Source: Blastococcus sp. PRF04-17 (GTDB lineage: Bacteria; Actinomycetota; Actinomycetes; Mycobacteriales; Geodermatophilaceae). From it: a stretch of 64,000 nt of DNA. The notes below the pieces were generated by a model, which worked only from the letters and a program-made list of their open reading frames with translations, was not told the DNA's origin and did not search any database. This document shows, in pieces, positions 332-61,754 of this stretch (position 1 is the stretch's first letter; the number at the start of each line of letters is the position of its first letter). The DNA lies in NCBI RefSeq assembly GCF_023016265.1, contig NZ_CP095412.1, forward strand, positions 3,782,001-3,846,000, written 5' to 3'. Position numbers and translations under genes: made by a program.

Positions 332-387
332 GGCCCCGTGCAGGGTCCCGTTGCGAGCGTGCGAGTGACGGGGAGCACGGGGTCCTT
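332..387 (-). repeat. Dispersed hairpin repeat, copy 1 (between map and infA)
   Basis: One of seven related copies of about 57 bp in this window. Read on the minus strand it begins GGACCCCGTGC and ends GCACGGGGCC, so the outer arms pair with one bulged A. Inner arms CCCGT/ACGGG also pair, and the loop core is CTCGCACGCTCG. It directly follows the map stop codon and may act as a terminator or mRNA end structure (inference). Confidence 0.85.
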
Positions 388-400
388 CTGGGAACCCCGT

Positions 401-430
401 TTGGAGTGGCGACGCGCCGCGCGGTACAGT
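401..430 (+). promoter_or_regulatory. Probable sigma-A-type promoter for infA
   Basis: TTGGAG (401-406) and TACAGT (425-430) are separated by 18 nt, a reasonable match to an actinobacterial housekeeping promoter. It lies about 170 nt upstream of infA and downstream of the repeat that ends map, implying that infA and the alpha operon have their own promoter and a long leader. Confidence 0.5.
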
Positions 431-600
431 GGTCGATGGCGTTCGCGCCGTCCTGTCGTCGTGCTGTGGCCGCATGACCCGGGGCGCCCTCGCGAGAGCG
501 TCGTGCACCACCTGTTCTGCAACCACCGAGCGCCTCCGTCCGGGTATCCCCGTGGGCGCGTGAGGTCCAGTACCACCGAGTCAGGGAGCGCGTTCAAGGC

Positions 601-822
601 ATGGCGAAGAAGGACGGGGCCATCGAGGTCGAGGGTCGCGTCGTCGAGCCGCTGCCCAATGCGATGTTCCGGGTCGAGCTGCAGAACGGGCACCGGGTGC
701 TCGCCCACATCAGCGGCAAGATGCGCCAGCACTACATCCGCATCCTGCCCGAGGACCGCGTGGTCGTGGAGCTCTCGCCCTACGACCTGACGCGCGGTCG
801 CATCGTCTACCGCTACAAGTAA
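601..822 (+). CDS. infA: Translation initiation factor IF-1
   Basis: IF-1 binds the 30S A site during initiation. The 73-residue product is the usual length and is a single OB-fold (S1-like) domain from end to end. It begins [20 protein letters not shown], and the RGRIVYRYK ending is diagnostic. The ATG at 601 is preferred because the protein then matches the family start exactly. The gene leads the cluster infA-rpmJ-rpsM-rpsK-rpsD-rpoA-rplQ, all on the plus strand, and has a possible promoter about 170 nt upstream. Nothing unusual is seen in it. Confidence 0.97.
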
Positions 823-895
823 CCGCTCGGTCTGCGCCCGCCACGACAGGCGGAGGGCGACCGGCACACGATCTGAGGAATGAGGGGCGGCACCG

Positions 896-1009
896 GTGAA
901 GGTCCAGCCGTCGGTGAAGAAGATCTGCGACAAGTGCAAGGTGATCCGCCGGCACGGCCGGGTCATGGTCATCTGCGACAACGCCCGGCACAAGCAGCGC
1001 CAGGGCTGA
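896..1009 (+). CDS. rpmJ: 50S ribosomal protein L36
   Basis: bL36 is a tiny zinc-ribbon protein of the large subunit. The 37-residue product starts at GTG 896 ([14 protein letters not shown]...) and ends RHKQRQG. Zinc ligands C11, C14, C27 and H32 are all present, so this is the zinc-binding (C+) form. It sits 73 nt after infA and 15 nt before rpsM, the conserved place for rpmJ. It is too short for most open-frame screens but is unmistakable. Confidence 0.95.
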
Positions 1010-1024
1010 GGGAGTACTCCGAAC

Positions 1025-1405
1025 ATGGCACGACTGGCCGGCGTCGACCTGCCCCGCGAGAAGCGGATGGAGATCGCGCTCACCTACATCTATGGCATCG
1101 GCAAGGCCCACGCCAAGGAGACCCTGGCGGCGACGGGCGTGAGCCCCGACCTGCGGGTCAAGGACCTCGGCGACGAGGACCTGCTGAAGCTGCGCGACTA
1201 CATCGACGAGCACTTCCGCGTCGAGGGTGATCTGCGCCGCGAGGTGGCCTCCGACATCCGCCGCAAGGTGGAGATCGGCTGCTACCAGGGGCTGCGGCAC
1301 CGCCGCGGGCTGCCCGTCCACGGTCAGCGCACCCGCACCAACGCGCGCTCGAGCAAGGGCCCGCGCAAGACCATCGCCGGCAAGAAGAAGGCCGGCAAGA
1401 AGTAA
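1025..1405 (+). CDS. rpsM: 30S ribosomal protein S13
   Basis: uS13 sits in the head of the small subunit and contacts tRNA and the 50S subunit. The 126-residue product has the typical start [19 protein letters not shown], the helix-two-turn-helix [14 protein letters not shown] segment, and the basic tail with [20 protein letters not shown]. The rest of the C-terminus is lysine-rich (KKKAGKK), as expected for rRNA contact. It lies between rpmJ and rpsK in the alpha operon. A strong hairpin (1409-1429) follows its stop codon immediately. Confidence 0.97.
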
Positions 1406-1408
1406 ACG

Positions 1409-1429
1409 GTCGGGGGCTCCGCCCCCGAC
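1409..1429 (+). terminator. Hairpin between rpsM and rpsK
   Basis: GTCGGGGG (1409-1416) and CCCCCGAC (1422-1429) form a perfect 8-bp stem with a 5-nt loop, only 4 nt after the rpsM stop. There is no T-tract, and transcription must continue to rpsK, so an attenuating or mRNA-stabilising role is as likely as termination. Confidence 0.5.
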
Positions 1430-1505
1430 TGCCCCCCGGTGTCGGTCGCCTCGTGTGCGTCGCCGCCGGTTCCAGGCCACGAACGAAGAGGGAACCGACA
1501 GACTC

Positions 1506-1913
1506 ATGCCTCCCAGGGCTCGCGCCGCGGCCGGCGCCAAGAAGGTCCGCCGCAAGGAGAAGAAGAACGTCGCTCACGGTGCTGCGCACATCAAGAGCAC
1601 GTTCAACAACACGATCGTCTCGATCACCGACCCGAACGGGAACGTGATCAGCTGGGCGTCGGCCGGCCACGTCGGCTTCAAGGGCTCCCGCAAGTCCACG
1701 CCGTTCGCCGCGCAGATGGCCGCCGAGAACGCGGCCCGCAAGGCGCAGGAGCACGGCATGCGCAAGGTCGACGTCTTCGTGAAGGGCCCGGGCTCGGGCC
1801 GCGAGACCGCGATCCGCTCCCTGCAGGCAACCGGCCTCGAGGTGGGCCAGATCCAGGACGTCACCCCGCAGCCGCACAACGGCTGCCGCCCCAAGAAGCG
1901 CCGCCGGGTCTGA
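1506..1913 (+). CDS. rpsK: 30S ribosomal protein S11
   Basis: uS11 forms part of the platform of the small subunit near the mRNA exit. The product is 135 residues from ATG 1506. It carries [18 protein letters not shown], a [14 protein letters not shown] segment, and the C-terminal [18 protein letters not shown] ending that is nearly invariant in bacteria. Longer in-frame starts exist upstream, but only 1506 gives the family N-terminus. It precedes rpsD by 34 nt in the alpha operon. Confidence 0.97.
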
Positions 1914-1947
1914 CCGGCCACAGACGAGACGAACGAGGTAGATAGAC

Positions 1948-2574
1948 GTGGCCCGTTACACCGGAGCCGACTGCCGCATGTGCCGGCGCGAGAAGATGAA
2001 GCTGTTCCTCAAGGGCAGCAAGTGCGAGTCCCCGAAGTGCCCGATCGAGATCCGGCCGTACCCGCCGGGCGAGCACGGTCGCGGCCGCACCAAGGACAGC
2101 GAGTACCTGCTCCAGCTGCGCGAGAAGCAGAAGGCACGCCGCATCTACGGCGTCCTGGAGAAGCAGTTCCGCGGGTACTACGAGGAGGCCAACCGCAAGA
2201 CCGGCAAGACCGGTGAGGTCCTCCTCCAGATCCTGGAGTCCCGCCTCGACAACGTGGTCTACCGGGCCGGCCTGGCCGAGTCCCGCGACATGGCCCGCCA
2301 GCTGGTGCGCCACGGTCACATCAAGGTCAACGGGCGCAAGGTCGACATCCCGTCCTACCGCGTGAGCGAGAACGACATCATCGAGGTCGCCGAGAAGTCG
2401 CGCACGATGCTGCCGTTCGAGATCGCCCAGGCGCGCGCCGGCGAGCGGCCGGTGCCGCCGTGGCTCGAGGTCATCAGCAGCCAGCTGCGCGTGCTGGTCC
2501 ACAGCATCCCGGCCCGCCAGGTGATCGACACCCCGGTCCAGGAGCAGCTGATCGTGGAGCTCTACTCGAAGTAG
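1948..2574 (+). CDS. rpsD: 30S ribosomal protein S4
   Basis: uS4 is a primary 16S rRNA binder and, in many bacteria, the translational autoregulator of the alpha operon. The 208-residue product starts at GTG 1948 ([19 protein letters not shown]). It retains the zinc-binding cysteines C9, C12, C26 and C31, so it is the C+ paralogue form. An S4 RNA-binding domain ([12 protein letters not shown], then [13 protein letters not shown]) occupies roughly residues 98-160. The C-terminus ends [11 protein letters not shown] as usual. A 34-bp perfect palindrome lies just after the stop, before rpoA. Confidence 0.97.
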
Positions 2575-2579
2575 CAGTG

Positions 2580-2613
2580 CTCAGGAGCCGAAACCGCGGT
2601 TTCGGCTCCTGAG
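2580..2613 (+). terminator. 34-bp perfect palindrome between rpsD and rpoA
   Basis: CTCAGGAGCCGAAACC (from 2580), GC, then GGTTTCGGCTCCTGAG (to 2613) is an uninterrupted inverted repeat. As RNA it would form a very stable stem. It starts 6 nt after the rpsD stop and about 100 nt before rpoA, so it may separate or attenuate the two halves of the operon. No T-tract follows. Confidence 0.6.
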
Positions 2614-2710
2614 ACCGGTTCCGGCGGGCGGACGGATGTCCGCCGGAGCCCGCACCACCCCCTCACGGCGTCATATGGCGGTCGCCGGAGGACTGTGAAG
2701 GAGAAACACC

Positions 2711-3789: not shown

Positions 3790-3796
3790 GGCCGGT

Positions 3797-3828
3797 TGCC
3801 GGACGGCGGGTCGCCCCGCCGTCCGGCA
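3797..3828 (+). terminator. Strong hairpin between rpoA and rplQ
   Basis: A perfect 14-bp stem (3797-3810 with 3815-3828) has a 4-nt loop. It sits 8 nt after the rpoA stop and about 115 nt before rplQ. Like the other hairpins of this operon it lacks a T-tract. Confidence 0.6.
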
Positions 3829-3944
3829 CCCCCCTCGAGGCGGCCACACTGGACAGCCGCACCACCGCACCACCGCACATCCAGGACGACGCAAGACCAC
3901 GGACGCAGCCGGCACTCCCTCCGGCGGCCTGAGGAAGGACCGAC

Positions 3945-6207: not shown

Positions 6208-6246
6208 CGCGGCCTCTCGACGGTGGGTCTCCTCGACGCTAACCGC

Positions 6247-6876: not shown

Positions 6877-6882
6877 GGCGAC

Positions 6883-6910
6883 ACCGTAGGCCGCCGGCGG
6901 TCGGTACCGT
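6883..6910. promoter_or_regulatory. Divergent -10 elements of mobA and fdhD
   Basis: Within the 41-nt gap, TACGGT on the minus strand (6883-6888) lies 6 nt before the mobA GTG, and TACCGT on the plus strand (6905-6910) lies 7 nt before the fdhD GTG. Both spacings predict transcription starting at or next to the start codon. Confidence 0.5.
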
Positions 6911-6917
6911 TCCGGAC

Positions 6918-10296: not shown

Positions 10297-10380
10297 CTTG
10301 TCCGATCGCTCGGACTGCGGCCCGGAACGGGCTCCGGTTAGGGTCCGGACAGGGACAGGGACGGGGGTGCCGAGACGGAG

Positions 10381-10896
10381 GTGCGTGTGGCCGAGATCGA
10401 CCGGATGCTCGAGGCGAACGAGAAGTGGGCGCAGCGGTTCCCCGGCAGCAAGCCGGTGCGGCCGGGGCGGGCCGTGGCGGTCGTCGCATGCATGGACGCC
10501 CGCATGCCGCTGTTCCAGCTGCTCGGGCTCGAGGTCGGCGACGCCCACGTCATCCGCAACGCCGGCGGGGTGATCACCGAGGACACGATCCGGTCGCTGA
10601 CGATCTCGCAGCACCTGCTGGGCACCCGGGAGGTGGTGCTGGTGCACCACACCGACTGCGGTCTGGAGAAGAGCGACGACGTGAGCTTCGGTGACCTGGT
10701 CGAGCAGGCGACCGGACGCCGTCCGCCGTGGGCGCCGCGGTTCTTCACCGACGTCGACGACGACGTCCGGGAGTCGATGCGGCTGATCAGGGACAGCCCG
10801 TACCTGCTCTCGCACGAGGTGCGTGGGACCGTGTACGACGTGGAGACGGGGCGGATCCGCGAGATCAAGGACCCCGCTGCCCCCCACCACTCGTAA
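10381..10896 (+). CDS. Beta-carbonic anhydrase
   Basis: This enzyme interconverts CO2 and bicarbonate. The 171-residue product has the zinc ligands C37 (in ACMDARM), H90 and C93 (in HHTDC), with the D39-R41 catalytic dyad and the [14 protein letters not shown] segment. It belongs to the short actinobacterial beta class. GTG 10381 follows a GGAGGT-like site. A TAGGGT -10 lies near 10338. Oddly, the last residues (KDPAAPHHS) and the stop codon are encoded by a copy of the dispersed hairpin repeat, so the repeat has replaced or trimmed the native C-terminus. Confidence 0.93.
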
Positions 10897-10924
10897 ACCC
10901 GCGGTGGGCCCCTGCAGCGGGGCC
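10867..10924 (+). repeat. Dispersed hairpin repeat, copy 2 (3' end of carbonic anhydrase)
   Basis: The outer arms are GGACCCCGCTGC and GCAGCGGGGCC (one bulged A) and the inner arms are CCCACC/GGTGGG. It overlaps the last codons of the carbonic anhydrase gene and supplies its TAA stop, then extends 28 nt beyond. Confidence 0.9.
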
Positions 10925-10951
10925 GAGGGCCGGGTCGGTCACGCGCGCTGG

Positions 10952-10957
10952 TACTGT
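10952..10957 (+). promoter_or_regulatory. Probable -10 element for rplM-rpsI
   Basis: TACTGT lies 110 nt before rplM, directly downstream of the repeat that ends the preceding gene. A -35 cannot be assigned with confidence. Confidence 0.35.
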
Positions 10958-11066
10958 CTTCGGTTGGCGCGCGCAAGCCGGCTGGTGCCCGCGTGTCGCA
11001 CCGTCTCCCGTGCTCGGTGAGGCGATCCCACCAGCCTTCCCGACGACGACGGAGGACACGAGCGCC

Positions 11067-11510: not shown

Positions 11511-11583
11511 GGGAGCTTGCGACCGAACCCAACAGCACAGCACCGTCGGTCACGACGCCGACGAGCGCCAGCGAGGAGAGCAA

Positions 11584-12008: not shown

Positions 12009-13352
12009 TTGGGTCGCCTGTTCGGGACCGACGGCGTCCGTGGTCGGGCCAACGCCGACCTCACGCCGGAGCTGGCCCTGGCGGTGGCACGTGCTGCCGC
12101 ATCCGTCCTCGCCGACCGCGACGGGACACATCGTCCCGTCGCGGTCGTCGGGCGCGACCCCCGTGCCAGCGGGGAGATGCTCGAGGCCGCGGTGGTGGCC
12201 GGCCTGACGAGCGCGGGCGCCGAGGTGCTGCTCGCCGGCGTCGTCCCGACGCCCGCACTGGCCCACCTGACCGCGGTGAGCGGCGCCGACCTCGGCGTCA
12301 TGATCTCGGCCAGCCACAACCCCATGCCCGACAACGGCATCAAGCTGTTCAGCCGGGGCGGGCACAAGCTGCCCGACGCCGTCGAGGCCGACATTGAGCG
12401 CACCGTCGCCGGCGGCAGCTCCGAGGAGCACCGGCCCACCGGCGGCGGGATCGGCCGGGTGCGCGTGCTCGAGGACGCCGCCGAGGACTACGTCGCGCAC
12501 CTGCTGTCCACCGTCGAGGGATCGCTGGCCGGCCTGACGCTCGTCGTCGACTGCGCGCACGGCGCCGCGGCCGCGACCGCGCCGGAGGTCTACCGGCGTG
12601 CCGGGGCGACGGTGCACGCCATCGGGTGCGAGCCCGACGGCTGGAACATCAACGACGGCGTCGGGTCCACCCACCTCGGTCCGCTGGTCGAGGCCGTACG
12701 CGCCCATGGCGCGGACCTCGGCATCGCGCACGACGGCGACGCCGACCGGTGCCTGGCCGTGACGGCCGACGGCGACGTGGTCGACGGCGACGCCATCCTG
12801 GCCATCTGCGCCATCGCGCTGCACGACCGGGGCGCGCTCAAGGACGACACGGTCGTCGCGACGGTGATGAGCAACCTCGGCTTCCACCACACGATGCGCG
12901 GCGCCGGCATCGCCGTGCACACCACCGCGGTCGGTGACCGCTACGTGCTCGAGGCGCTGAAGGACCGTGGACTGAGCCTGGGTGGCGAGCAGAGCGGACA
13001 CCTGGTGTTCCTGGAGCACGCCACGACCGGCGACGGGCTGCTCACCGGCCTCGCGCTGATGTCGCGCATGAGCGCCACCGGCTCGTCGCTCGCCGAGCTG
13101 GCCTCGGTGATCCAGCGGCTGCCGCAGACCCTGGTGAACGTGCCGGTCACCGACCGGCTGGCGGTGGCAGAGAGTGACCAGGTGGCCGAGGCGGTCAACG
13201 CCGTCGAGGAGGAGCTCGGCGACACCGGGCGGGTGCTCCTGCGCCCCTCGGGAACCGAGCAGCTGGTCCGGGTGATGGTCGAGGCCCCGACACAGGAGCA
13301 GGCAGACCAGGTGGCCCACCGGCTGGCCGAGGTCGTCGCCCAGGTCGGGTAG
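12009..13352 (+). CDS. glmM: Phosphoglucosamine mutase
   Basis: GlmM converts glucosamine-6-phosphate to glucosamine-1-phosphate for peptidoglycan and other amino-sugar polymers. The 447-residue product starts at TTG 12009, giving [20 protein letters not shown], the exact family start. The phosphorylated Ser is S102 in [13 protein letters not shown], the Mg loop is AHDGDADRC, and the sugar-binding [19 protein letters not shown] and phosphate-binding [15 protein letters not shown] motifs are present. It follows rpsI and precedes glmS, so consecutive pathway steps sit together. Confidence 0.96.
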
Positions 13353-15362: not shown

Positions 15363-15419
15363 AGGACCCCGCTGCCCCCCACCGCTCGCACGCTCGCGGC
15401 GGGACCCTGCAGAGGGGCC
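15363..15419 (+). repeat. Dispersed hairpin repeat, copy 3 (between glmS and acpS)
   Basis: Outer arms GGACCCCGCTGC and GCAGAGGGGCC pair with one mismatch. The loop core CTCGCACGCTCG is intact. The copy begins 5 nt after the glmS stop and ends 31 nt before acpS. Confidence 0.88.
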
Positions 15420-15450
15420 GTTCCAGCACGTTCGGTGCACACTGACCTGC

Positions 15451-27762: not shown

Positions 27763-27820
27763 AAGGACCCCGCTGCCCCCCACCACTCGCTAGTTCGCGG
27801 CGGGGCCCTGCAGCAGGGCC
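27763..27820 (+). repeat. Dispersed hairpin repeat, copy 4 (after groEL)
   Basis: Outer arms are GGACCCCGCTGC and GCAGCAGGGCC (one mismatch), inner arms CCCC/GGGG. It lies 21 nt after the groEL stop and just before a second, unrelated hairpin (27834-27870). Confidence 0.88.
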
Positions 27821-50705: not shown

Positions 50706-51776
50706 GTGTCCGCCCGCGACGCCCGCTCCGGGCCCGCCCGCGACCGCTCGGCGGCGAGGACTGCGCGACGCAGTGCCGCGGCCTCCCGCGCCGGGGCTGC
50801 CGGGTCCCGCGCCGCACGTAGCCGTGCCGGGGCCGCCGCGACGGCGAAGGCACCGTCCGGTGACGGGCTCGTCGTCGGCCCGGTCCCGGGCGCGGCGCGG
50901 CTGACCGGTGTCCTGCTCGTCCTGGCCGGCGTGCTGGGTGCGGCGGCGCTGTTCCCCACCTATCTGGTGGTCGGCGGCGAGGCGCTCAGCGCGGCCAACG
51001 GTTCCGCCGGCGTGGTCGCGGGGCTCCTCGTGCCCGTGGCCGCCGTCGCCGTCGGGGCGGTGCTGCTGCGCGGCGCCGTCCCCAAGTTCGGTCTCGCCTA
51101 CGCCGGCATCGCCGGCGCGCTGGCGCTGGGCCAGATGCTGATCGAGTTGTACCGGGGGCGCAGTTCCACCTCCCGACCGGCGGTGGAGGTGCTCGCGGGC
51201 GAACGCGTGCTGACCAGCAGTGTCGAGGTCGCCGCCGGCTGGGTGCTGGCCGTGCTGGCGCTGGGCCTGACCGTGGTCGCCGGAATCGTCGCCACGGTGG
51301 CCTGGGGGCGCACGGTGATGGAGGACGGCGGAGCGCTTGACCCCGCGCGCTCGGCGCTGGCCGGAGCGGCGGTCGTGCTCGGCGTCGGCACGGTGCTGTG
51401 CCTTGCGCTGCCGTCGGCCGACGTCCCCGACCGCCTCGTCCTCGACCCGGCCACCGGGCTGGAGGTCGTGGTCGCCCAGGAGGGGCCCCAGGCGTTGCTC
51501 GAGCGGCCGGGTCTGGCCCTCCTCGGCGGACTGCTGCTCGCGGGTGCGGTGGTGCTCTGCTCCGTGGTCGCGCCGTCGCTGCGGCCCCGGCTGGCCGCCG
51601 TGGGGGCCCTGCTCGCCGTCGCCGTCACCGTCCTCGCCGCAGGACTGACCGGCCTGCGCGACGCGACGACCTCGGACGCCCTCGACTGGACCCTGCCGGG
51701 CGTCGGGCTGCTGATCGCGGGGGTCGGCTACGCCCTGCTGACACTGGCCGCCTGGCGGGTCCGCCGCGCCTCGTGA
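50706..51776 (+). CDS. Multi-span membrane protein with Ala/Arg-rich N-terminus
   Basis: The 356-residue product from GTG 50706 has about 55 cytosolic residues rich in Ala, Arg and Ser. Roughly eight predicted membrane spans follow, in groups (such as LTGVLLVLAGVLGAAALFP, GVVAGLLVPVAAVAVGAVLL, LALLGGLLLAGAVVLCSVV). A soluble loop is seen near DRLVLDPATGLEVVVAQEGP. No family is recognised and no catalytic motif is visible. It is the last gene before a dispersed repeat and a cobalamin-binding protein. Longer N-termini are possible but GTG 50706 has GGAGGGAGAACC upstream. Confidence 0.75.
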   Translation: MSARDARSGPARDRSAARTARRSAAASRAGAAGSRAARSRAGAAATAKAPSGDGLVVGPVPGAARLTGVLLVLAGVLGAAALFPTYLVVGGEALSAANGSAGVVAGLLVPVAAVAVGAVLLRGAVPKFGLAYAGIAGALALGQMLIELYRGRSSTSRPAVEVLAGERVLTSSVEVAAGWVLAVLALGLTVVAGIVATVAWGRTVMEDGGALDPARSALAGAAVVLGVGTVLCLALPSADVPDRLVLDPATGLEVVVAQEGPQALLERPGLALLGGLLLAGAVVLCSVVAPSLRPRLAAVGALLAVAVTVLAAGLTGLRDATTSDALDWTLPGVGLLIAGVGYALLTLAAWRVRRAS

Positions 51777-51786
51777 CGCGCTGAAC

Positions 51787-51842
51787 GGCCCCGCTGCAGG
51801 GGCCCGCCGCGAGCTTGCGAGTGGTGGGAGCAGTGGGGTCCT
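51787..51842 (-). repeat. Dispersed hairpin repeat, copy 5 (before the B12-binding gene)
   Basis: Read on the minus strand it has outer arms GGACCCCACTGC and GCAGCGGGGCC (one mismatch) and loop core CTCGCAAGCTCG. It lies between two plus-strand genes, 10 nt after the first stop. A -10 for the next gene (TAGGGT) starts only 6 nt beyond its end. Confidence 0.87.
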
Positions 51843-51860
51843 CTTACTAGGGTGGCCGGC

Positions 51861-52271
51861 GTGACGGACGAACGCATCCGGGTGGTCATCGCCAAACCCG
51901 GCCTGGACGGGCACGACCGCGGCGCGAAGATCGTCGCCCGCGCGCTGCGCGACGCCGGCATGGAGGTCGTCTACACCGGCCTGCACCAGACGCCCGAGCA
52001 GATCGTGGAGACCGTCGTCCAGGAGGACGCCGACGCCGTCGGGCTCTCGGTGCTCTCGGGCGCGCACATGACGCTGTTCGCGCGGCTGAACGAGCTCCTG
52101 GCCGAGCGCGGCATCGACGACGTCGTGGTGTTCGGCGGCGGGATCATCCCCGACGAGGACATCCCCGAACTCGAGCGCTCCGGCGTCGCGAAGATCTTCA
52201 CGCCCGGTGCGACGACCACGGAGATCGTCGACTGGGTGCGCGAGAATGTGGGCACGCCGCTCAGTTCGTGA
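51861..52271 (+). CDS. Stand-alone cobalamin (B12)-binding domain protein
   Basis: The 136-residue product from GTG 51861 has the base-off B12 motif [20 protein letters not shown] (DxHxxG). It then has [34 protein letters not shown] with the SxL element, and [17 protein letters not shown] with the GG loop. It matches the C-terminal half of methylmalonyl-CoA-type mutases (small subunit or stand-alone carrier). No mutase catalytic subunit is in the window. TAGGGT lies 7 nt before the GTG, favouring this leaderless start over GTG 51852. It overlaps the next, convergent gene by 11 nt. Confidence 0.9.
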
Positions 52272-54132
52272 CCGGCACCGTCAGCTGCTGCGTCTTGCCG
52301 GGACCTGTCGTGAGGAACACCGGCTGCGTGCTGGTGGACCCGCGGTAGGCGAAGTCCCCGCCGGCCAGGACGACGACCAGCCGGTGGCCCTTGTCGAAGC
52401 GGTGCACGATGCCCGGCAGCTCGATCGTCACGGGCTTGGTGACGTCGTCGACGCGGGCGGGCGAGATGAGCCGGTGCGGCAGTTCGATCGCGCCGTCCGG
52501 CCCGACGTCGTAGAGCTTGGCGTAGACCACCAGCTGTCCGCCCGGTCCTGCCTCCTGGCTGAGCGCGACCGAGGGAGCGTCGAGCTGCACGGTCAGCCGC
52601 GGCGAGCCGACGACGTCCATCGGGCGGGTCAGCGGCGGCGTGGCGAACCGGATCGCCGAGCCCGGCGGGTCGACGACCGGCCGGCTCTGGTCGAGCGCCG
52701 AGGTCTCGGTGTAGTTCGGTCCGACCGGTGCCAGGTTCTGGTACTCGCTCGTGCCCGGCACCACCGCGGCGCGGCTGGTCACCAGCGCTCCGTCGGTGCC
52801 ACCGACGCTGCTGCCGGACAGGTGGAAGGTCTTCTGGCTGCCGACCGGGTAGGACGGCGCCGCGGCATAGGCCTTGCGGATGTCACCCGTCGCCTCGTAC
52901 ACCCAGTCGCGGTAGTACGCGAACCCCTGCGGCGACTTCGGACCGCGATCTCGGACGTAGTGGTCGAACCAGGCCAGCGCCGCCCGGCCCTGCAGCGACT
53001 GCGCCGGGCGCCGCAGGTCGAGCTCGCCGGGCTTCGGCGTGGAGCTGCTGTGACCCCACGACTGCCAGAACAGTGACACCGGCGTCCCCTGGCGTCGCAG
53101 CGCGGTGTAGGTGGCCACCGACTCCTGCAGGTTGAACAGCGTGTCGGCCTGGCCCTGCCCGATCAGGGTCGGGACCTTGACGTCGCGGATGTAGCTGGCG
53201 ACCGAGTTCGACTGCAGGTAGGCGATCGAGGCCTGGCTCGGGTACCCGAGAGTGCCGACCTCGACCAGCGCCCGGCAGACCTCGGGCTCGAAGTTCAGGC
53301 AGTTCTTCCCGGCCTGCTGGAAGAACGCCTCGAAGGCGGCCGGGTCGGCGAGCGCCTGGAGGTCCTCGACGCCGTTGACCACGCCGACCGTCGTGAACAG
53401 TGCCGCCCACTGGTACTTGAAGACGCCCGGGTTCGGCGAGCTCACCGATCCGCTGCGGGCGGTGCCGTGCGGCAGGCCGCTGTTGTCCGGCGCCAGCGAG
53501 TAGGACAGGTCGTTCCAGGTGATCAGCGGGACGATCGCGTCCAGCCGGTTGGTCCGCTTCCACTTCTCGTAGCCGGCCGCGGCGAACTGGATCTGACCGC
53601 CGTAGGAGCCGCCGGTCATGCCGACCTGCGGGTCGTGGCGGGTGCCGGTCTTCGCGTCCTCGCGCACGACCTGGTCGACGACGACCCGCTCCTTCGTGTC
53701 GTCGTCGACGGCCACGATCGACCGGTCCCCGCCCAGGAAGCGGATCAGCTGGCTGGCGGCCGCTCCGTCGTGCTCGCGGTCGTCGAGGGTGATCGGGCAG
53801 TTGTCGCCGTCGACGAAACCGAGGCCGGTGTAGGAGAGGGTCACGTAGCCGTGCTCGCCGAAGCCCTGGGCCAGGTCGGCCTGGTCGTCCTTGGTGCCGC
53901 CGAACCCGTTGGTCACCAGCAGGGCCGGCCCCGGCCGCTGCCTCGTGACCCCGGGCGGGACGTAGAGGTCGGCGTCGATGTGGCAGGTCCGCTTCTCGGG
54001 GCCGAGGTCGGTGACCGTGATCGTCAGGTCGCGGGGGACGATCTCGGTCGCGGCCGAGGCCGACGGCGCCAGGGCGGCGAGCCCGCCGGCAGTCAACGCG
54101 GCGGTGAGCAGGGCGGTCGCAGCGCGGCGCAC
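52261..54132 (-). CDS. Secreted S15-type peptidase (X-Pro dipeptidyl-peptidase/CocE family)
   Basis: The 623-residue product starts with a signal peptide ([20 protein letters not shown]..., cleavage near ASAAT). The hydrolase core has [20 protein letters not shown], nucleophile S176 in [14 protein letters not shown], an acid region [14 protein letters not shown] and catalytic His in [16 protein letters not shown]-terminal jelly-roll (from about residue 440) ends with [20 protein letters not shown]. It is an extracellular serine peptidase or acyl esterase of unknown substrate. It is divergent from sucC across a 157-nt region with a palindrome. Confidence 0.9.
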
Positions 54133-54195
54133 TGGGAGCTCCTCGTCGTCGAGGCAGGACTAGCGGGCACGTTCGGGCAGCGTGAGGGGCCCGAT

Positions 54196-54225
54196 GGTGT
54201 GACGCATCCTGTGATGCGTCCCACC
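54196..54225. promoter_or_regulatory. Palindromic operator-like site between the S15 peptidase gene and sucC
   Basis: GACGCATC (54201-54208) and GATGCGTC (54213-54220) are perfect arms with CTGT between, extended outward by GGTG/CACC. The same bases also read as two tandem 12-mers, TGTGACGCATCC and TGTGATGCGTCC. It lies 64 nt upstream of the S15 start codon and 65 nt upstream of the sucC start codon. Confidence 0.5.
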
Positions 54226-54275
54226 CGGCCCCCGGTCGTACAACGCCCGGGTCGGCATGGTGGTTACGGGCGGGC

Positions 54276-54281
54276 TACGGT
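54276..54281 (+). promoter_or_regulatory. Probable -10 element of sucC
   Basis: TACGGT lies 8 nt before the sucC GTG, suggesting a leaderless transcript. Confidence 0.45.
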
Positions 54282-54289
54282 GCCTGTTC

Positions 54290-55453
54290 GTGGATCTCTT
54301 CGAGTACCAGGCCCGTGACGTGTTGGCCAAGCACGGCGTCCCCGTGCTGCCCGGTGGCGTCGCCGAGACGCCCGACGAGGCGGAGGCGATCGCCCGCGAG
54401 ATCGCCGCGCCCGTGGTGGTGAAGGCCCAGGTGAAGACCGGCGGCCGTGGCAAGGCCGGTGGCGTCAAGCTCGCGGACGACGCCGAGGGCGCCAAGGCGC
54501 GCGCCCAGGACATCCTGGGCCTCGACATCAAGGGCCACGTCACGCGCAAGGTGATGGTGGCCCAGGCCAGCGACATCGCCGAGGAGTACTACTTCTCCTA
54601 CCTGCTCGACCGCTCCAACCGCACCTTCCTGGCCATGGCGTCGGTCGAAGGCGGCATGGAGATCGAGGAGGTCGCGGCCACCAAGCCCGAGGCGCTGGCC
54701 AAGATCCCGATCGACGCGACGACCGGCGTCGACGAGGCCAAGGCGACCGAGATCGTCGACGCGGCCAGGTTCCCCGCCGACGTCCGCGACCAGGTGATCG
54801 CCATCGCCGTCCAGCTGTGGGAGGTCTTCAGCAAGGAGGACGCCACCCTGGTCGAGGTGAACCCGCTGGCGAAGGCGCCCGACGGCACCGTCCTCGCGCT
54901 GGACGCCAAGGTGACCCTCGACGCGAACGCGGACTTCCGGCAGCCGGAGCACGCCGCCCTCGAGGACGCCGCCTCCGCCGACCCGCTCGAGGCTGCGGCG
55001 AAGGAGAAGGACCTCAACTACGTCAAGCTCGAGGGCGAGGTCGGGATTATCGGCAACGGTGCCGGTCTGGTCATGAGCACCCTGGACGTCGTCGCGTACG
55101 CGGGCGAGGAGTTCGGCGGGGTCAAGCCGGCCAACTTCCTCGACATCGGCGGCGGCGCCTCGGCCGAGGTCATGGCCAACGGGCTGCACATCATCCTGTC
55201 CGACCCGGCCGTGAAGAGCGTGTTCGTGAACGTCTTCGGCGGCATCACCGCCTGCGACGCCGTCGCCAACGGCATCGTGTCGGCCCTGCAGCTCCTGGGC
55301 GACGAGGCCACCAAGCCGCTCGTGGTCCGGCTCGACGGCAACAACGTCGAGGAGGGCCGGCGGATCCTCGCCGAGGCCAACCACCCGCTGGTCACCGTCG
55401 TCGACACGATGGACGGCGCCGCGCGCCGGGCCGCCGAGCTCGCCGCCGCCTGA
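54290..55453 (+). CDS. sucC: Succinyl-CoA synthetase beta subunit
   Basis: SucC binds nucleotide and succinate and, with SucD, makes succinate and ATP or GTP from succinyl-CoA in the TCA cycle. The 387-residue product from GTG 54290 starts [20 protein letters not shown]. It has an ATP-grasp fold ([40 protein letters not shown]) and the C-terminal domain with [12 protein letters not shown] and [20 protein letters not shown]. An upstream ATG in frame lacks family support. sucD follows after 92 nt that contain a dispersed repeat. Confidence 0.97.
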
Positions 55454-55455
55454 GC

Positions 55456-55511
55456 AAGGACCCCGTCCCCCTCATCCCTCGCAGGCTCGGGACGAGCCCC
55501 TGGACGGGGCC
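55456..55511 (+). repeat. Dispersed hairpin repeat, copy 6 (inside the sucC-sucD operon)
   Basis: Outer arms GGACCCCGTCC and GGACGGGGCC pair with one bulged A. Relative to the CTGC/GCAG copies, both arms have changed together. Inner arms CTCATCCC/GGGACGAG also pair apart from one mismatch. It starts 3 nt after the sucC stop and ends 34 nt before sucD. Confidence 0.9.
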
Positions 55512-55545
55512 ACCGGCGCCCACTTCCGAGACAGGATTCTGTGAA

Positions 55546-56421
55546 ATGTCGATCTTCCTCAACGAGAACAGCAAGGTCATCGTCCAGGGCATGACCGGCT
55601 CCGAGGGGCGCAAGCACACCCAGCGCATGCTCGCCTCGGGCACCGCGATCGTCGGTGGCGTCAACCCCCGCAAGGCCGGCGAGAGCGTCGACTTCGACGG
55701 CGCCACGGTGCCGGTCTTCGGCGGCGTCGCCGAGGCCATGAAGGAGACCGGCGCCGACGTCAGCGTCATCTTCGTGCCGCCGCCGTTCGCCAAGGCGGCC
55801 GTCATCGAGGCCGTCGACGCCCAGATCGGGCTCGCCGTCGTCATCACCGAGGGCATCCCGGTGCACGACTCGACGTACTTCTGGGCCCACGCACAGGGCA
55901 GCTCGACCCGGATCATCGGCCCGAACTGCCCCGGCCTGATCAGTCCGGGGCGCTCGAACGCCGGCATCATCCCGGCCAACATCACCCGGCAGGGCACGAT
56001 CGGCCTGGTCAGCAAGTCGGGCACGCTGACGTACCAGATGATGTACGAGCTCCGGGACATCGGCTTCTCGACCGCCGTCGGCATCGGTGGCGACCCCGTC
56101 ATCGGCACGACGCACATCGACTGCCTGCAGGCGTTCCAGGACGACCCGGAGACCGAGGCCATCGTGATGATCGGCGAGATCGGTGGGGACGCCGAGGAGC
56201 GCGCGGCCGACTTCGTCAAGGCCAACGTGACCAAGCCGGTCGTCGGCTACGTCGCCGGTTTCACCGCCCCCGAGGGCAAGACGATGGGCCACGCCGGCGC
56301 CATCGTCTCCGGCTCGTCGGGCACCGCCCAGGCGAAGAAGGAGGCCCTCGAGGCCGCCGGCGTGCGCGTGGGCAAGACCCCGTCGGAGACCGCCCGCCTC
56401 ATGCGGGAGATCGTCGGCTGA
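55546..56421 (+). CDS. sucD: Succinyl-CoA synthetase alpha subunit
   Basis: SucD binds CoA and carries the phosphohistidine. The 291-residue product from ATG 55546 starts [20 protein letters not shown], with the CoA-binding Rossmann domain, [40 protein letters not shown], and the active-site His249 in [20 protein letters not shown]. It pairs with sucC. The repeat between them could uncouple their expression. Confidence 0.97.
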
Positions 56422-56560
56422 CGCGCGGCCGCCCCTGGCGGCTGGCCACTTCCCTGATCACGGATGGGCGACGGTGGGCGTGCCACGGTTGCGGCAGCGC
56501 ACGCGGTGCGACCACCATGCGGCTCGCACGTCCCCGACGCTCTGCGAGGAGAGCCCTGCG

Positions 56561-57617
56561 ATGACCAGCCAGCCTCCGCCGCCCCCGTCCGGCGGTCAGC
56601 CTCCGGAGCACGGGCAGCAGCCTCCGCACCAGCCGCCGCCACCGCAGGGTCCGCCGCCCGGCTATGGTCCCCCGCCCGGTCAGCAGCCCCCGCCGGGCTA
56701 CGGCCCGCCGCCCGGGTACGGCCAGCAGCCCCCTCCCGGGTACGGCCCGCCGGCCGGCTACCAGCAGCCGCCGCCTGGGTACGGGCCGCCGCCCGGGTAC
56801 GGCCAGCCCGCCCCGTACGGGCAGCCGGCCCGGCAGCGGCACGAGCGTCTCGTTCGACCTCAAGCGCCTGAAGCTGGCGGACTACGTCATCGCCGGCGGC
56901 ACGCTCCTGTTCCTCATCCTGGCTTTCTTCCCGTGGTTCACCTTCGGTGACGATTTCTTCGGGTTCAGCCTGAGCGGGTTCGACTCCGGCAATGTGACGT
57001 CGGCCTTCGTGCTGTTCCTGCTGGCGACCGCCTGGGCGGTGCTGCCGGCGTTCGTCGAGCTGAAGCTGGGCTTCCCCCGCTCCTGGGTCACCGTGGGCAT
57101 CTGCGCGCTGGCGTGGCTGCTCACGCTCTTCGCCTGGATCGACAGCTTCGACGGCGACTTCTCCATCTGGGCGCTGCTCGGCTTCCTGACGGCGACCGCG
57201 ATCCTCGTGTTCGCCGTCCTCTCCCTGCTGCCGGAGCTGCGCAACCGACCGGCCCTGCCGGGCGGGCTGGCCAACGCCGCCCAGTGGGCCAACCAGCCGG
57301 CGCCGGACTTCGGGCAGCAGGGGCAGCAGTCCTACGGCCAGGGCGGCTACGGCCCGGCCGGCTACGGCCAGCCCGGTCCGCCGCAGGGTCCGCCGCAGGG
57401 TCCGCCGCAGCAGCACTACTCGCCGCCGGCGCCGCCGACCGCTCCGCTGCCCGCGCAGCCGCAGCACCCCGCCCAGCACGCGCAGCCGCAGCAGCCGCCG
57501 ACCCCGCCCCCGGCGACCCCACCGTCGTCGTCCTACGGGCCGCCGGCGACGGGCGGCTCGACCGCGTCGGGTGAGGGCACGGACACGCCGGGTTCCGGCG
57601 AGCGGCCCAACCCCTGA
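56561..57617 (+). CDS. Pro-rich four-span membrane protein (DUF5336-like); frame broken as read
   Basis: ATG 56561 starts MTSQPPPPPSGGQPPEHGQQ and a Pro/Gly/Tyr-rich repeat region (PPPGYGPPPGYGQQ type) of about 90 residues. The frame fails at about 56835. SVSFDLKRLKLADYVIAGGT continues one base later, with four membrane spans (such as LLFLILAFFPWFTF and FVLFLLATAWAVLPAFVEL) and a Pro/Gln-rich tail to 57617. One extra base in ggcccgg would explain it, the only apparent insertion among the broken genes. Position after sucD matches mycobacterial Rv0954. Function is unknown. Confidence 0.77.
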
Positions 57618-57624
57618 GCTGACC

Positions 57625-57658
57625 GCCGGAGGCGCCCGATAACCCGGGCGCCTCCGGC
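57625..57658 (+). terminator. Terminator after the DUF5336-like gene
   Basis: GCCGGAGGCGCCCG (57625-57638) and CGGGCGCCTCCGGC (57645-57658) form a perfect 14-bp stem with a 6-nt loop, 8 nt after the stop codon. Confidence 0.8.
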
Positions 57659-57702
57659 GCGTGCGCCGCGGTCGAGACACCGGGCCTTGCGAGAGTGGGG
57701 AC

Positions 57703-58899
57703 GTGGTCTCCCTGCTCGCACGCGTTCCCCGGCGCGGACGGGACCTCGCGGCGCTGCGGCGCCCGGTGCCGCTGCTCGGCGTCGCCGGAGTGGCCGCCCT
57801 CGCGGTCACTCTCGTCGGCCTGGCCGGGCTCGGTCTGGCTCTCGTCGTCGTCCAGACCCTCGACCCTGCCGGCGGTCTGACCGTCGCCGACTCCGTCGCC
57901 GTGGCCGGCCGGCTGTGGCTGCTGGCCCAGGGCGGGGAGCTGGACGTCGGCTCGGGGCCCATCGTCGTGGCGCCCCTGCTGCTGACGCTCGGCATCGCCT
58001 GGGGGCTGTCGCAGGCCGGCCGGGGGTTCGTGCGGCTCGGCGACGTCGGCTCGTGGCGGCAGGCGCTCCAGGGCGGCGCCGTCCTGGTCGGGGTGCACGT
58101 GGTGATCGGGGTCCTGCTGGGCGTCGTGGTGGACAGCCCCTCCGCACAGGTCGGCCTGCTCCGGACCGCCGCCGGGGCCGCCGTCCTCGGAGTCGTCGCC
58201 GTCGGCTGGGGCGTCGGCCGGGAGTCCGGCCTGCTGGACGACGTCCTCGACGAGCTGCCCGGCGGCGTCCGGCCGATGCTGCGCGGCGTGCTCGCCGGGT
58301 TGCTCACCGCGTTGGCTGCCTGCGCCGTCGTCGTGGCCATCGCCCTCGCCTCCGACGCGAGCGGCTACGCGGCGCTCTCGCGTTCGCTGGGCGGTGCCGC
58401 CGCCGGAGCGCTCGGCCTCCTGGGGCTCGGCGTGCTGCTGCTGCCGAACGCGGCCGCTGCGGTGCTGGGGCTGGCCGCCGGGCCCGGGTTCTTCGTCGGC
58501 ACCGGCACGCTCGTGTCGGTGCACGGGGTGACGCTCGGCGCCGTCCCCGCGCTGCCGATGCTCGCCGCGCTGCCCGACACCCAGGCGGTGCCGCTGATCG
58601 CCTTCGTCTCGCAGGTGATCCCGGGGATCGCGGGCCTGGTCGCCGGGGCCACCGTGGGCCGGCACCTCGGCGGCCGGGACGGCGGATCGGTGGTGGCCGG
58701 CCTGGTCGGGCTGCTCTCCGGCGTCCTCCTCGGGCTGGCGAGCGGACTGGTGGTCTGGATCGCCGGCGGCTCGCTGGGCGACGGCAACCTGTCGCTGGTC
58801 GGCGCTCCGGTGCTGGCCACCGCCGGCGCCGTCGCGGCGCAGAGCGGGATCACCGCGGCGGTCGCCGCCGCCGTCGCGCGCTGGCGGTCGCAGAGCTGA
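57703..58899 (+). CDS. perM: PerM-like integral membrane protein (DUF6350)
   Basis: The 398-residue product from GTG 57703 is almost entirely membrane spans (about ten), with Gly/Ala/Leu/Val-rich helices and short loops. It matches the actinobacterial DUF6350 family by position and composition. Mycobacterial PerM (Rv0955) stabilises the divisome under stress; equivalence is inferred from synteny between sucCD and purN. A GTG at 57661 would lengthen the N-terminus by 14 residues. Confidence 0.83.
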   Translation: MVSLLARVPRRGRDLAALRRPVPLLGVAGVAALAVTLVGLAGLGLALVVVQTLDPAGGLTVADSVAVAGRLWLLAQGGELDVGSGPIVVAPLLLTLGIAWGLSQAGRGFVRLGDVGSWRQALQGGAVLVGVHVVIGVLLGVVVDSPSAQVGLLRTAAGAAVLGVVAVGWGVGRESGLLDDVLDELPGGVRPMLRGVLAGLLTALAACAVVVAIALASDASGYAALSRSLGGAAAGALGLLGLGVLLLPNAAAAVLGLAAGPGFFVGTGTLVSVHGVTLGAVPALPMLAALPDTQAVPLIAFVSQVIPGIAGLVAGATVGRHLGGRDGGSVVAGLVGLLSGVLLGLASGLVVWIAGGSLGDGNLSLVGAPVLATAGAVAAQSGITAAVAAAVARWRSQS

Positions 58900-58910
58900 A
58901 GCGTGGCCCT

Positions 58911-58918
58911 TATAGGGT
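58911..58918 (+). promoter_or_regulatory. Probable -10 element of purN
   Basis: TATAGGGT (58911-58918) ends 6 nt before the purN GTG and starts 12 nt after the perM stop. It is the best -10 match in the window and predicts a leaderless purN-purH transcript. Confidence 0.55.
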
Positions 58919-58924
58919 CCCTGC

Positions 58925-59536
58925 GTGCCTGCCGCGCTACCCACTTCGCGGGCGCGGATCGTCGTCCTCCTGTCGGGGACCGGCTCGCTGTGCGCCGCGC
59001 TGCTGGAGGCCACGGACGACCCGGCCTACCCGGCCGAGGTCGTCGCCGTCGGCAGCGACCGGCGCGCCGAGGGCCTCCAGCACGCCACCCGCCGCGGGCT
59101 GCCGACCTTCGTGTGCGCCGTGGGGGACCACCCCGACCGCGCGGCCTGGGACCGGCGGCTGGCGGCCGACATCGCCGAGTACGACCCCGATCTGGTGGTC
59201 TCCGCGGGGTTCATGAAGATCGTCGGCCCCGCGGTGCTGGGCGCATTCGGTGGCCGGCTGATCAACACCCATCCGGCGCTGCTGCCGGCGTTCCCCGGGG
59301 CCCACGCCGTGCGGGACGCCCTCGCCGCGGGCGTGCCGGTCACCGGGGCGACGGTGCACGTGGTCGACGCCGGTGTCGACACCGGCCCCGTGCTGTCCCA
59401 GCGCGAGGTCGCCGTCGCGCCCGGGGACGACGAGGCGAGCCTGCACGAGCGGATCAAGGAAGTGGAGCGCGAGCTCCTGGTGGAGACGGTGGCGCGACTC
59501 GTCCCCGCCGTCACGAGTAGGGAGAGCCCTCGATGA
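58925..59536 (+). CDS. purN: Phosphoribosylglycinamide formyltransferase PurN
   Basis: PurN transfers a formyl group from 10-formyl-THF to GAR in purine synthesis. The 203-residue product has [20 protein letters not shown], the catalytic [20 protein letters not shown] (Asn and His), and [20 protein letters not shown] with the catalytic Asp. Start is GTG 58925, just after a -10, with no ribosome-site need. It overlaps purH by ATGA, giving a two-gene purine operon. Confidence 0.96.
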
Positions 59537-61086
59537 GCGACCGCACCGCGATCCGCCGCGCACTGCTCGGCGTGTACGACAAGACCGGCGTCGAGGAACT
59601 GGCCGCGGGGCTGGCCGCGGCCGGCGTCGAGCTGGTGAGCACCGGCGCGACGGCCCGGCGCATCGCCGAGGCGGGCATCCCGGTGACCCCCGTCGAGCAG
59701 GTGACCGGCTTCCCCGAGTGCCTCGACGGCCGGGTCAAGACGCTGCACCCGTCGGTGCACGCGGGGATCCTCGCCGACCGCCGCAAACCCGAGCACGTGG
59801 CGCAGCTCGACGAATTGGGCATCGCCCCGTTCGACCTCGTGGTCGTCAACCTCTACCCGTTCACCGAGACCGTCGCCTCGGGTGCCAGCCCGGACGAATG
59901 CGTCGAGCAGATCGACATCGGCGGGCCGGCGATGGTCCGCGCGGCGGCCAAGAACCACCCGTCGGTCGCCGTGGTCGTCGACCCCGGCCGGTACCGCGAC
60001 GTCCTCGCCGCCGTGGCCGAGGGCGGGTTCACCCTGGCCCAGCGCCAGGCGCTGGCCGCCGCGGCGTTCCGGCACACCGCGACCTACGACATCGCCGTGG
60101 CCTCGTGGCTGGGCAACGTGGTCGCGCCGGACGACGAGGGCAGCGGCTTCCCGGGCTGGGTCGGCGCGACCTGGGACCGTGCCGACGTGCTGCGCTACGG
60201 CGAGAACCCGCACCAGCGGGCGGCGCTCTACCGCAGCTGGGAGCCTGGGCTGGCGCACGCGGAGCAGCTGCACGGCAAGGAGATGTCGTACAACAACTAC
60301 GTCGACACCGACGCCGCCTGGCGGGCCGCCCACGACCACGACGACCCGTGCGTGGCGATCATCAAGCACGCCAATCCGTGCGGCATCGCCGTCGGCCCGG
60401 ACATCGCGTCGGCCCACCGCAAGGCGCACGCCTGCGACCCGATCTCGGCGTTCGGCGGCGTCATCGCGGCCAACCGGGAGATCGATCTGACCATGGCCGA
60501 GCAGGTCTCGGAGGTCTTCACCGAGGTCGTCGTGGCGCCGTCCTTCACCGATGACGCGCTACGGGTGCTGACCGCGAAGAAGAACATCCGCCTGCTGCGG
60601 TTGCCGCACGTGCCCGGCCCGGGTGCCGAGATGCGGCCGATCAGCGGCGGCCTGCTGCTGCAGGTCCGGGACAGCCTGGACGCCCCCGGTGACGACCCCA
60701 CCTCGTGGACGCTGGCGGCCGGGGAGCCGCTGGACGCCGCCGGGCTGGACGACCTGGTCTTCGCCTGGCGCGCGGTGCGCGCGGTGAAGAGCAACGCGAT
60801 CCTGCTGGCGCACGACCGCGCCACCGTCGGGGTGGGCATGGGCCAGGTCAACCGGGTGGACGCCGCCCGGCTCGCCGTCACGCGGGCGGGGGAGAGGGCC
60901 GCCGGGTCGGTCGCGGCGTCCGACGCGTTCTTCCCGTTCGCCGACGGGCTGCAGGTGCTGCTGGAGGCCGGCGTGCGGGCCGTCGTCCAGCCGGGTGGTT
61001 CGGTGCGCGACGAGGAGGTCGTGGCCGCCGCGGCGGCGGCCGGCGTCCCCCTGTACCTCACCGGCACCCGCCACTTCGCGCACTGA
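59533..61086 (+). CDS. purH: Bifunctional AICAR transformylase / IMP cyclohydrolase PurH
   Basis: PurH performs the last two steps to IMP. The 517-residue product has the cyclohydrolase domain first ([60 protein letters not shown]). The transformylase domain follows ([35 protein letters not shown], and [15 protein letters not shown] with catalytic Lys-His). The C-terminal [20 protein letters not shown] and TRHFAH end is invariant. Its stop overlaps the next start (TGATG) at a dispersed repeat. Confidence 0.97.
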
Positions 61087-61754
61087 TGAGGCCCCGTCCA
61101 GGGTCCCGCCCTGAGCGTGCGAAGGGTGGTGGGGACGGGGTCCTTTCTCCGCCGGAGCCGGGGACCGAGGTCGAAGGGGAGGACCTCGCGCGGGTCGACT
61201 GGTGGGGTGCGGAGCTGGACGGCGTGACGTTCACCCGCTGCCGCTTCGACGACGCCTCGCTCGAGGAGCTGGTCACCCGCCGCTGCGTCTTCGAGTCGTG
61301 CGTGCTGACCGGGGTGCGGCTGAGTGGTTCCAAGCACCACGGCTCGGCGTTCCTGTCCTGCCGGTTCGACCGGGCCAAGCTGCTCGACGCCGTCTGGGAC
61401 GGCTGCAAGCTGACCGGGTCGCAGTTCCCCGGCGCGCAGCTGCGTCCGATGACCTCGATCGACAGCGACTGGTCGTGGACCGCGCTCCGCGGCGCCGATC
61501 TGTCCGGCCTCGACCTGTCGGGCCAGCGCTTCCGGGAGGCCGACCTGACCGACGCCGACCTGCGCGAGTGCGACCTGACCGGCGCCGACCTCGACCGGGC
61601 GCGGCTGCAGTCGACGAAGCTGCGCGGAGCCGATCTGCGCGGGGCGTCGATGGACGAGGTCAACTGGCGGGCGTTCGAACTGACCGGGGTGCGCCTCGAC
61701 CTGGTGCAGTCGGTGCAGTTCGCCCGCGCCCACGGCGCCCTCGTCGCGGACTAG
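61086..61754 (+). CDS. Pentapeptide-repeat protein
   Basis: The 222-residue product is built from A(D/N)Lxx-type repeats: FDDASLEELVTRRCVFESCV, LRGADLSGLDLSGQRFREAD, LTDADLRECDLTGADLDRAR, LQSTKLRGADLRGASMDEVN. These form a right-handed quadrilateral beta-helix. Some such proteins mimic DNA and protect gyrase from quinolones, but this one is not assigned. The only in-frame ATG, 61086, overlaps the purH stop. Residues 2-20 are encoded by a dispersed repeat, so the N-terminus looks acquired. The stop shares a CTAG with the convergent gene. Confidence 0.85.
   Translation: MRPRPGSRPERAKGGGDGVLSPPEPGTEVEGEDLARVDWWGAELDGVTFTRCRFDDASLEELVTRRCVFESCVLTGVRLSGSKHHGSAFLSCRFDRAKLLDAVWDGCKLTGSQFPGAQLRPMTSIDSDWSWTALRGADLSGLDLSGQRFREADLTDADLRECDLTGADLDRARLQSTKLRGADLRGASMDEVNWRAFELTGVRLDLVQSVQFARAHGALVAD
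61090..61145 (-). repeat. Dispersed hairpin repeat, copy 7 (5' end of pentapeptide gene)
   Basis: Read on the minus strand, outer arms GGACCCCGTCC and GGACGGGGCC pair with one bulged A, and inner arms ACCCTT/AGGGCG pair partly. Loop core is TTCGCACGCTCA. It lies inside the N-terminal coding part of the pentapeptide gene. Confidence 0.9.

Follow-up and report, generated by a model that had tools for sequence, protein, structure and literature searches.

The 64,000-nucleotide (nt) stretch of Blastococcus sp. PRF04-17 considered here, hereafter the window (contig NZ_CP095412.1, positions 3,782,001 to 3,846,000, with coordinates counted from its first letter), carries seven copies, all with covarying arms and conserved loops, of a 54-56-nt hairpin element of the Geodermatophilaceae, a family of soil actinobacteria. 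We favour, with a probability of about 0.62, the view that they are members of a non-autonomous mobile hairpin family of the Geodermatophilaceae resembling the repetitive extragenic palindromic (REP) sequences. The newly found property of this family is its adjacency to stop codons, at a distance that is fixed relative to the stop codon's G.

The first copy, c1 (332..385, plus strand; 54-nt type, arms GTGC/GCAC, cmsearch score 76.2 bits), turns its GGCCCC end towards a Peptidase_M24 (methionine-aminopeptidase-like) gene whose stop is 1 nt away. Copy c2 (10869..10924, minus strand; 56-nt type, arms CTGC/GCAG, 55.8 bits) overlaps the 3' end of a predicted carbonic-anhydrase-like open reading frame (ORF), with the ribosomal protein L13 gene 85 nt further. 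As only the first part of the Pfam profile is matched by this ORF (10387-10896) and its stop falls inside the c2 loop, the gene may be truncated or frame-shifted. Copy c3 (15364..15419, minus strand, 56-nt type) follows the TAA of a GlmS-like gene (GATase and SIS domains) by 5 nt and faces it with the GGACC end; this site is also filled, with changed arms, in genome G002 and lacks a copy in G015. Copy c4 (27765..27820, minus strand, 56-nt type) lies 23 nt past a chaperonin-60 (GroEL-like) gene and adjoins a terminator-like inverted repeat. Copy c5 (51787..51841, plus strand) is separated by 10 nt from each of its neighbours, the preceding gene lacking a Pfam match and the following one encoding a B12-binding domain; in G002, G009 and G015 this site carries no hairpin. 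Copy c6 (55458..55511, minus strand; 54-nt type, inner arm CTCATCCC/GGGACGAG) occupies the spacer between sucC-like and sucD-like genes, 4 nt past the TGA of the former; this stop and the GCAA leader preceding the hairpin foot GGACC (55451..55457, plus strand) exemplify the TGA+4 spacing described below. Finally, c7 (61090..61143, plus strand, 54-nt type) is located 3 nt past the stop of a PurH-like gene. The end nearest the stop is the GGACC end in c3 and c6 (5 and 4 nt) and the other end in c1, c5 and c7 (1, 10 and 3 nt).

These coordinates agree within 1-2 nt with those of the preliminary description made from the window, which had also recognized that the family occurs in both orientations: GGCCCC comes first on the plus strand in c1, c5 and c7 and on the minus strand in c2, c3, c4 and c6. 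All seven are recovered (E 5e-19 to 5e-12) by a covariance model whose 15 training sequences were 54-nt copies of the own genome and included three of the seven; the next window match has an E-value of 0.47. The placement of every copy at a gene end or start, as first stated, holds for the most part, six of the seven being 1-23 nt past an upstream stop and c2 overlapping the 3' end of a predicted ORF. Rfam yielded zero matches across the window at gathering thresholds and zero at E<=1 over 51600-61300.

Architecture and covariation of the hairpin

The lower stem of the element combines GG-CCCC with a variable stretch. Above it come an asymmetric internal loop and an upper stem, in which one G-U(T) wobble pair is nearly invariant, and the hairpin closes in a conserved 10-nt apical loop, GAGCNTGCGA. 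Two main length classes can be distinguished, of 54 nt (GGCCCCGTCC...GGACGGGGTCC) and 56 nt (GGCCCCGCTGC...GCAGCGGGGTCC). The seven window copies can be aligned over their full length and fold as initially described.

The covariation of the arms, first proposed from these seven copies, was upheld on an alignment of 115 own-genome matches in which 95.8% of the stem cells are paired. Double-changed cells number 278 as opposed to 94.5 in shuffles, and the covariation score reaches 0.390 compared with 0.141 after shuffling, a value attained by none of 500 shuffles; since the copies are related to one another, the shuffle values are not a strict probability, and the alignment, being fitted to the structure model, leans towards structure. 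Slid structures score just 0.02-0.08. Covarying pairs occur in both helices (6 of 10 and 5 of 8), in agreement with the 114-copy alignment. A weaker measure, the number of pairs changed on both sides, gives 11 against 8.8 in shuffles, with 40 of 500 shuffles reaching 11. The pairing of the hairpin is under selection. Conservation reaches 91-99% in eight of the ten apical-loop columns and is partial in the internal loop; together with the compensated arms, the conserved loop points to a specific recognition of the fold.

The two strands are not equivalent. The nearly fixed pair is G-U in 87 of 114 copies, G-C in 17, A-U in six and another combination in four. On the strand of the model, G-U cells outnumber A-C cells by 148 to 23, or by 61 to 23 with the fixed pair excluded (p 4e-5), a count somewhat biased by the fact that the matches were found with a model of that same strand. 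In 110 of 114 copies, RNA of the model strand folds more stably than that of its complement. The fixed wobble places the better fold on the strand that, in the commonest orientation, is antisense to the upstream gene.

Copy number, range and occupancy of orthologous sites

A simple pattern produced 38 matches in the 4.59-Mb genome of Blastococcus sp. PRF04-17, six of which were judged unrelated by eye. The covariance model found 114 at E<=0.1, the list on which all placement counts below are based, and 113 at E<=1e-3, the 114th (E 0.078) overlapping another copy in inverted orientation. Rescanning the own-genome stretches gave 114 at E<=0.001, namely the 113 and a new one at L130:413-474, and a second model gave 115. 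Because only 150 candidates were scored, the genome contains at least 114 copies.

The covariance-model search of the genome and the family, suggested in the preliminary description, bore out a family-wide distribution. Among 61 relatives, 32 of 37 genomes of the family matched and none of 24 from other families. With model R2, 22 of 23 family genomes matched and none of 14 from other families, some assemblies being incomplete. Seventeen of the 23 have 81 to at least 148 matches (148 being the number scored), and lower counts were obtained for G017 (66), G003 (46), G013 (29), G018 (5), G015 (1) and G020 (0). G015 belongs to the same genus, with 89% identity in sucCD, yet has one weak match where most congeners have dozens to more than 100. 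In an order-wide draw of 121 genomes, of which 84 match-free ones are not itemized, 17 matched, of which 15 belong to the family. The other two, G089 with two copies and G098 with one, come from other families (best E-values 6.5e-12 and 7e-11), and their copies may reflect transfer, contamination or a relict.

Filled and empty sites were compared at orthologous stops. The sucC-sucD spacer is readable in 29 of 30 loci, where six are filled and 23 empty (by eye). The copy is in sense orientation in G000, G002, G001, G024 and G029 and in the opposite orientation in G009. As both sequence and flank are common to G000 and G029, their copy was probably inherited; in the remaining filled spacers the arms differ between copies. 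Among named loci of the family, hairpins occupy four of 18 spacers: the sense orientation is found in L175, L177 (the same as G002) and L180, the reverse in L178. Past the purH stop, G002 and G029 bear sense copies, G000 a reversed one and G009 an apparent half copy, and G008 and G015 bear none. At the groES stop, different hairpins occupy G009 and G029, and G000, G002 and G015 are empty. In the comparison of purH, groES, c3 and c5, some sites are unmatched in some genomes, and the contigs of G008 and G009 span part of the window. The same stops (sucC, purH and groES) bear different copies in different species.

Copies are also present downstream of sucD in at least eight of the 18 named loci, upstream of a terminator-like hairpin and in some cases as tandem arrays. 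Two such same-strand arrays, L178:12126-12285 and L188:12078-12239, comprise three units apiece; every unit is a hairpin of ~53 nt with GGCC-TGA at its end. The separate hairpin, GCTGCCCGG...CCGGGCAGC or similar, follows sucD in many family genomes, copy-free ones included, near 12150-12290 (e.g. in L173, L178, L179, L181, L183, L187 and L188), and by eye it looks like the real terminator of the operon.

Placement behind stop codons

In 74 of 114 copies a stop codon, read in the sense direction, lies 0-7 nt before GGACC, compared with 1.9% of random noncoding placements; this count relies on a home-made gene caller, which placed five of the 114 copies inside a predicted gene. A caller-free test, considering the stops of open frames of at least 100 codons, raised the figure to 79 of 114; stops at +4 number 38, whereas the density between 31 and 199 nt is 0.2 per nt. 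Such a stop is found at -1 to 7 nt from the opposite end of the hairpin in 26 copies, and 91 have one at one end or the other. The nearest far-side neighbour is a convergent gene in 23 of the 74 stop-adjacent copies, the other 51 lying in tandem contexts. In other genomes, 63 of 88 copies are stop-adjacent: 35 of 42 at named-species loci, 16 of 23 at synteny loci and 12 of 23 among best-match singles. The 88 leave out the 11 weaker of 53 matches of the named-locus search, nine of 32 synteny matches (seven window rows and two duplicates) and six of 29 single loci (L077 and L085-L089).

The spacing depends on the stop codon. TGA stops are at +4 or +1 in 43 copies and at +2 or +5 in three, whereas TAG stops are at +5 or +2 in 14 copies and at +1 or +4 in one (Fisher p 4e-10). 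The constant quantity is therefore the distance from the G of the stop codon. In the sense strand, the leader adjoining the stop takes several forms (GAGAAA, AGNAGAA, GAA, AGAA), and several copies away from stops have similar leaders, such as CAGCAGAA or CTGAGAAA (by eye). The leader AGAAAGGA, encountered before many hairpins, looks, when set against the 3' end of 16S rRNA, like a long Shine-Dalgarno sequence that overlaps the stop codon. A CTGA target was considered but not retained: a C precedes TGA at 29 of 34 TGA+4 sites and at 217 of 336 background TGA stops, an apparent weak excess. Nor was a replication-strand bias retained, minus- and plus-strand copies numbering 13/9, 12/10, 12/15 and 28/15 in the successive quarters of the genome, whose origin was not located.

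The sequence register relative to the stop argues for a target component; the surplus of copies at stops, relative to the rest of the noncoding DNA, speaks for targeting, for a function or for retention. On the far side of the hairpin, a conserved extension like GTTCCAGCACGTCACC (sense) follows in a subset of copies: seven of 114 begin GTTCCA and 11 begin GTTC or GCTC. It is seen at window 15420-15435 and in the right flanks of L107, L116 and L149. A longer master element was sought by comparing all flanks against all others and was rejected for lack of a strong extension; own-genome flanks were in register in just four and seven pairs (E 1e-4 to 0.008).

Probable mobility, alternatives and comparison with known repeats

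The copies are dispersed, species differ in which sites are filled and the same stops have been occupied more than once; these features point to a mobile element, and the G-U wobble suggests a fold recognized on one strand, as in the single-strand processes of REP and the insertion sequence IS200. The element would move as DNA with one strand folded, in the commonest orientation the one antisense to the upstream gene. This strand would be recognized by its loop, bulge and wobble in the REP/IS200 single-strand manner, and the enzyme moving it would be supplied in trans. Insertion or survival would be favoured just past a stop, in the register G NNN AA/GGACC or G AA/GGACC, where the coding frame would be left intact; any host use of the hairpin in the 3' untranslated region (UTR) would be secondary. 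Of the readings offered in the preliminary description, a REP-like mobile hairpin family fits best: the copies are dispersed, sites are filled or empty and the number of matches ranges from 1 to at least 148 within the genus, while the GT[AG]G tag of REP systems is present in few copies and no Y1 transposase was found in 23 family genomes.

A number of results weigh against mobility, in addition to the strand bias inherent in the wobble count. No target-site duplication or exact element boundary could be established. The Y1 transposase profile PF01797 matched none of 23 family genomes (2 of 14 other-family and 5 of 14 control genomes), leading to the rejection of a RAYT/IS200 mobilizer, a negative that concerns the Y1/RAYT type and leaves room for other enzymes. 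A TnpB-type mobilizer was also rejected, PF07282 being present in just two of the 23. Visual inspection of the proteins listed between the hairpins of close pairs (14 of 15 pairs, without a Pfam search) revealed no transposase, and plasmids and phages gave no match with one hairpin copy as query. Copies of a neutral mobile element should be scattered over the whole of 3' UTRs, so that their crowding within 7 nt of stops requires targeting or selection for function. Stop-adjacent and other copies of the own genome do not differ in score rank (p 0.61); a filtering of young random insertions is thus not seen, and the idea that near-consensus copies are less often at stops gains no support there, in contrast with the best-scoring single copies from other genomes, of which just 12 of 23 are at stops. 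The IS91-type Y2 profile PF04986 had no match either, from which nothing follows since the controls were unmatched too.

The hairpin might instead serve the host as a 3'-UTR element of the upstream mRNA, such as the possible mRNA-stability element of the preliminary description, slowing terminating ribosomes or shielding the 3' end from exonucleases, in which case copies would have spread and the stop-adjacent ones would have been selected. The extreme concentration 0-7 nt past stops, in other genomes too, speaks for such a role, as do the housekeeping-type genes preceding window copies (GroEL-, SucC-, PurH- and GlmS-like) and the precedent, described in passages of PMC12306157, of Escherichia coli REPs within 15 nt of stops. 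We nevertheless consider it unlikely, because the wobble asymmetry favours the antisense strand and not the mRNA, the difference between TGA and TAG spacing tracks sequence and not codon distance, 23 of the 29 readable sucC-sucD spacers are empty and 26 of 114 copies have a stop within -1 to 7 nt of their opposite end. Termination of the upstream gene, also envisaged in the preliminary description, is unlikely and finds poor support: a copy resides in the sucC-sucD spacer, terminator-like hairpins follow copies (by eye) and the T-rich side is antisense, facing the stop in the commonest orientation. No T tract follows the hairpin on the sense strand: in 81 copies, T makes up 20-26% of each of the first three positions and 7-23% of each of the 27 after them.

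That T-rich side could suit an intrinsic terminator for antisense or convergent transcripts, the model strand ending in a hairpin and TTNNT that would halt RNA polymerase before its backward entry into the gene. The two T after the stem are present in 98% and 90% of the 81 copies, and a convergent gene is the nearest far-side neighbour of 23 of the 74 stop-adjacent copies. This function is nonetheless highly improbable, since both neighbours have the model strand as their antisense strand in the 51 tandem cases, copies at sucD and several own-genome sites are followed by terminator-like hairpins (by eye), one copy is inside the sucC-sucD spacer and a terminator has no need of a conserved loop sequence. 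Barely plausible is the retroposition of a small RNA, in which a model-strand RNA with a variable pyrimidine-rich 3' tail and an often missing 5' part would be copied into DNA at stops. The variable leader by the stop and the GTTCCAGCACGTCACC-like extension beginning in 7 to 11 of 114 own copies would agree with it; against it, the comparison of own-genome flanks gave no source RNA or longer master copy.

A mobile hairpin family remains our preferred reading. A bolder form of it, in which the hairpin would use gene stop codons as its insertion site through a single-strand or a ribosome- or mRNA-linked route without a Y1/RAYT enzyme, would amount to a new mobilization principle confined essentially to one actinobacterial family; we deem it quite unlikely. 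A family-wide hairpin set showing neither Y1 transposase nor GTAG-like tag combines variable occupancy with a fixed stop register. Because filled and empty orthologous stops coexist within one genus, one species of which is nearly copy-free, it provides a natural system for asking whether REPs gather past stops by targeting or by selection. The covariance model can be used for annotating Geodermatophilaceae 3' ends. Among the papers listed by searches of open-access literature, none showed such a hairpin family for Geodermatophilaceae or Actinobacteria, though one may already have been published.

Among actinobacterial intergenic repeats, the mycobacterial interspersed repetitive units (MIRU) have been proposed to enter TGA sites at gene ends; they are longer direct-repeat units, unlike the covarying hairpins described here. 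The usual explanation of REP-type hairpins invokes a Y1 transposase resident in the genome and a GTAG-like tag. Like the GTAG- and CGTC-tagged REPs mobilized by RAYT/TnpA-REP, the present family is made of high-copy, dispersed and mostly extragenic palindromes with a preference for the 3' ends of upstream or convergent genes. It differs by its 54-56 nt, its conserved apical loop and partly conserved internal loop, and the absence of a Y1 transposase from 23 Geodermatophilaceae genomes; moreover, GT[AG]G occurs 0-2 nt 5' of the hairpin foot in 10 of 114 copies on the sense strand and two of 114 on the model strand. As regards the paired inverted arrangement of bacterial interspersed mosaic elements (BIMEs) and REP doublets forming hairpins (REPINs), the copies are mostly single, with the same-strand arrays behind sucD and one overlapping inverted pair at genome positions 3718568-3718642 (weaker half E 0.078). 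There, in L150, two matches are fused head to head, inverted, with one common loop region, in REPIN-like fashion. Long mispaired stems are known among REPs from passages of PMC6006769. Parts of PMC3733652 state that the tag of GTAG families often provides a TAG stop and place GTAG repeats in Proteobacteria, Cyanobacteria, Chloroflexi and PVC, the string 'actinobact' being absent from its main text. The closest positional parallel concerns the translation-regulating REPs of E. coli, hairpins directly past a stop codon: according to passages of PMC12306157, 446 of the 4,072 REPs predicted lie no more than 15 nt from a stop, as do 260 of 496 in an earlier study cited there. By comparison, about two-thirds of the Geodermatophilaceae copies lie within 7 nt of a stop, in a fixed sequence register and with the better-folding strand antisense.

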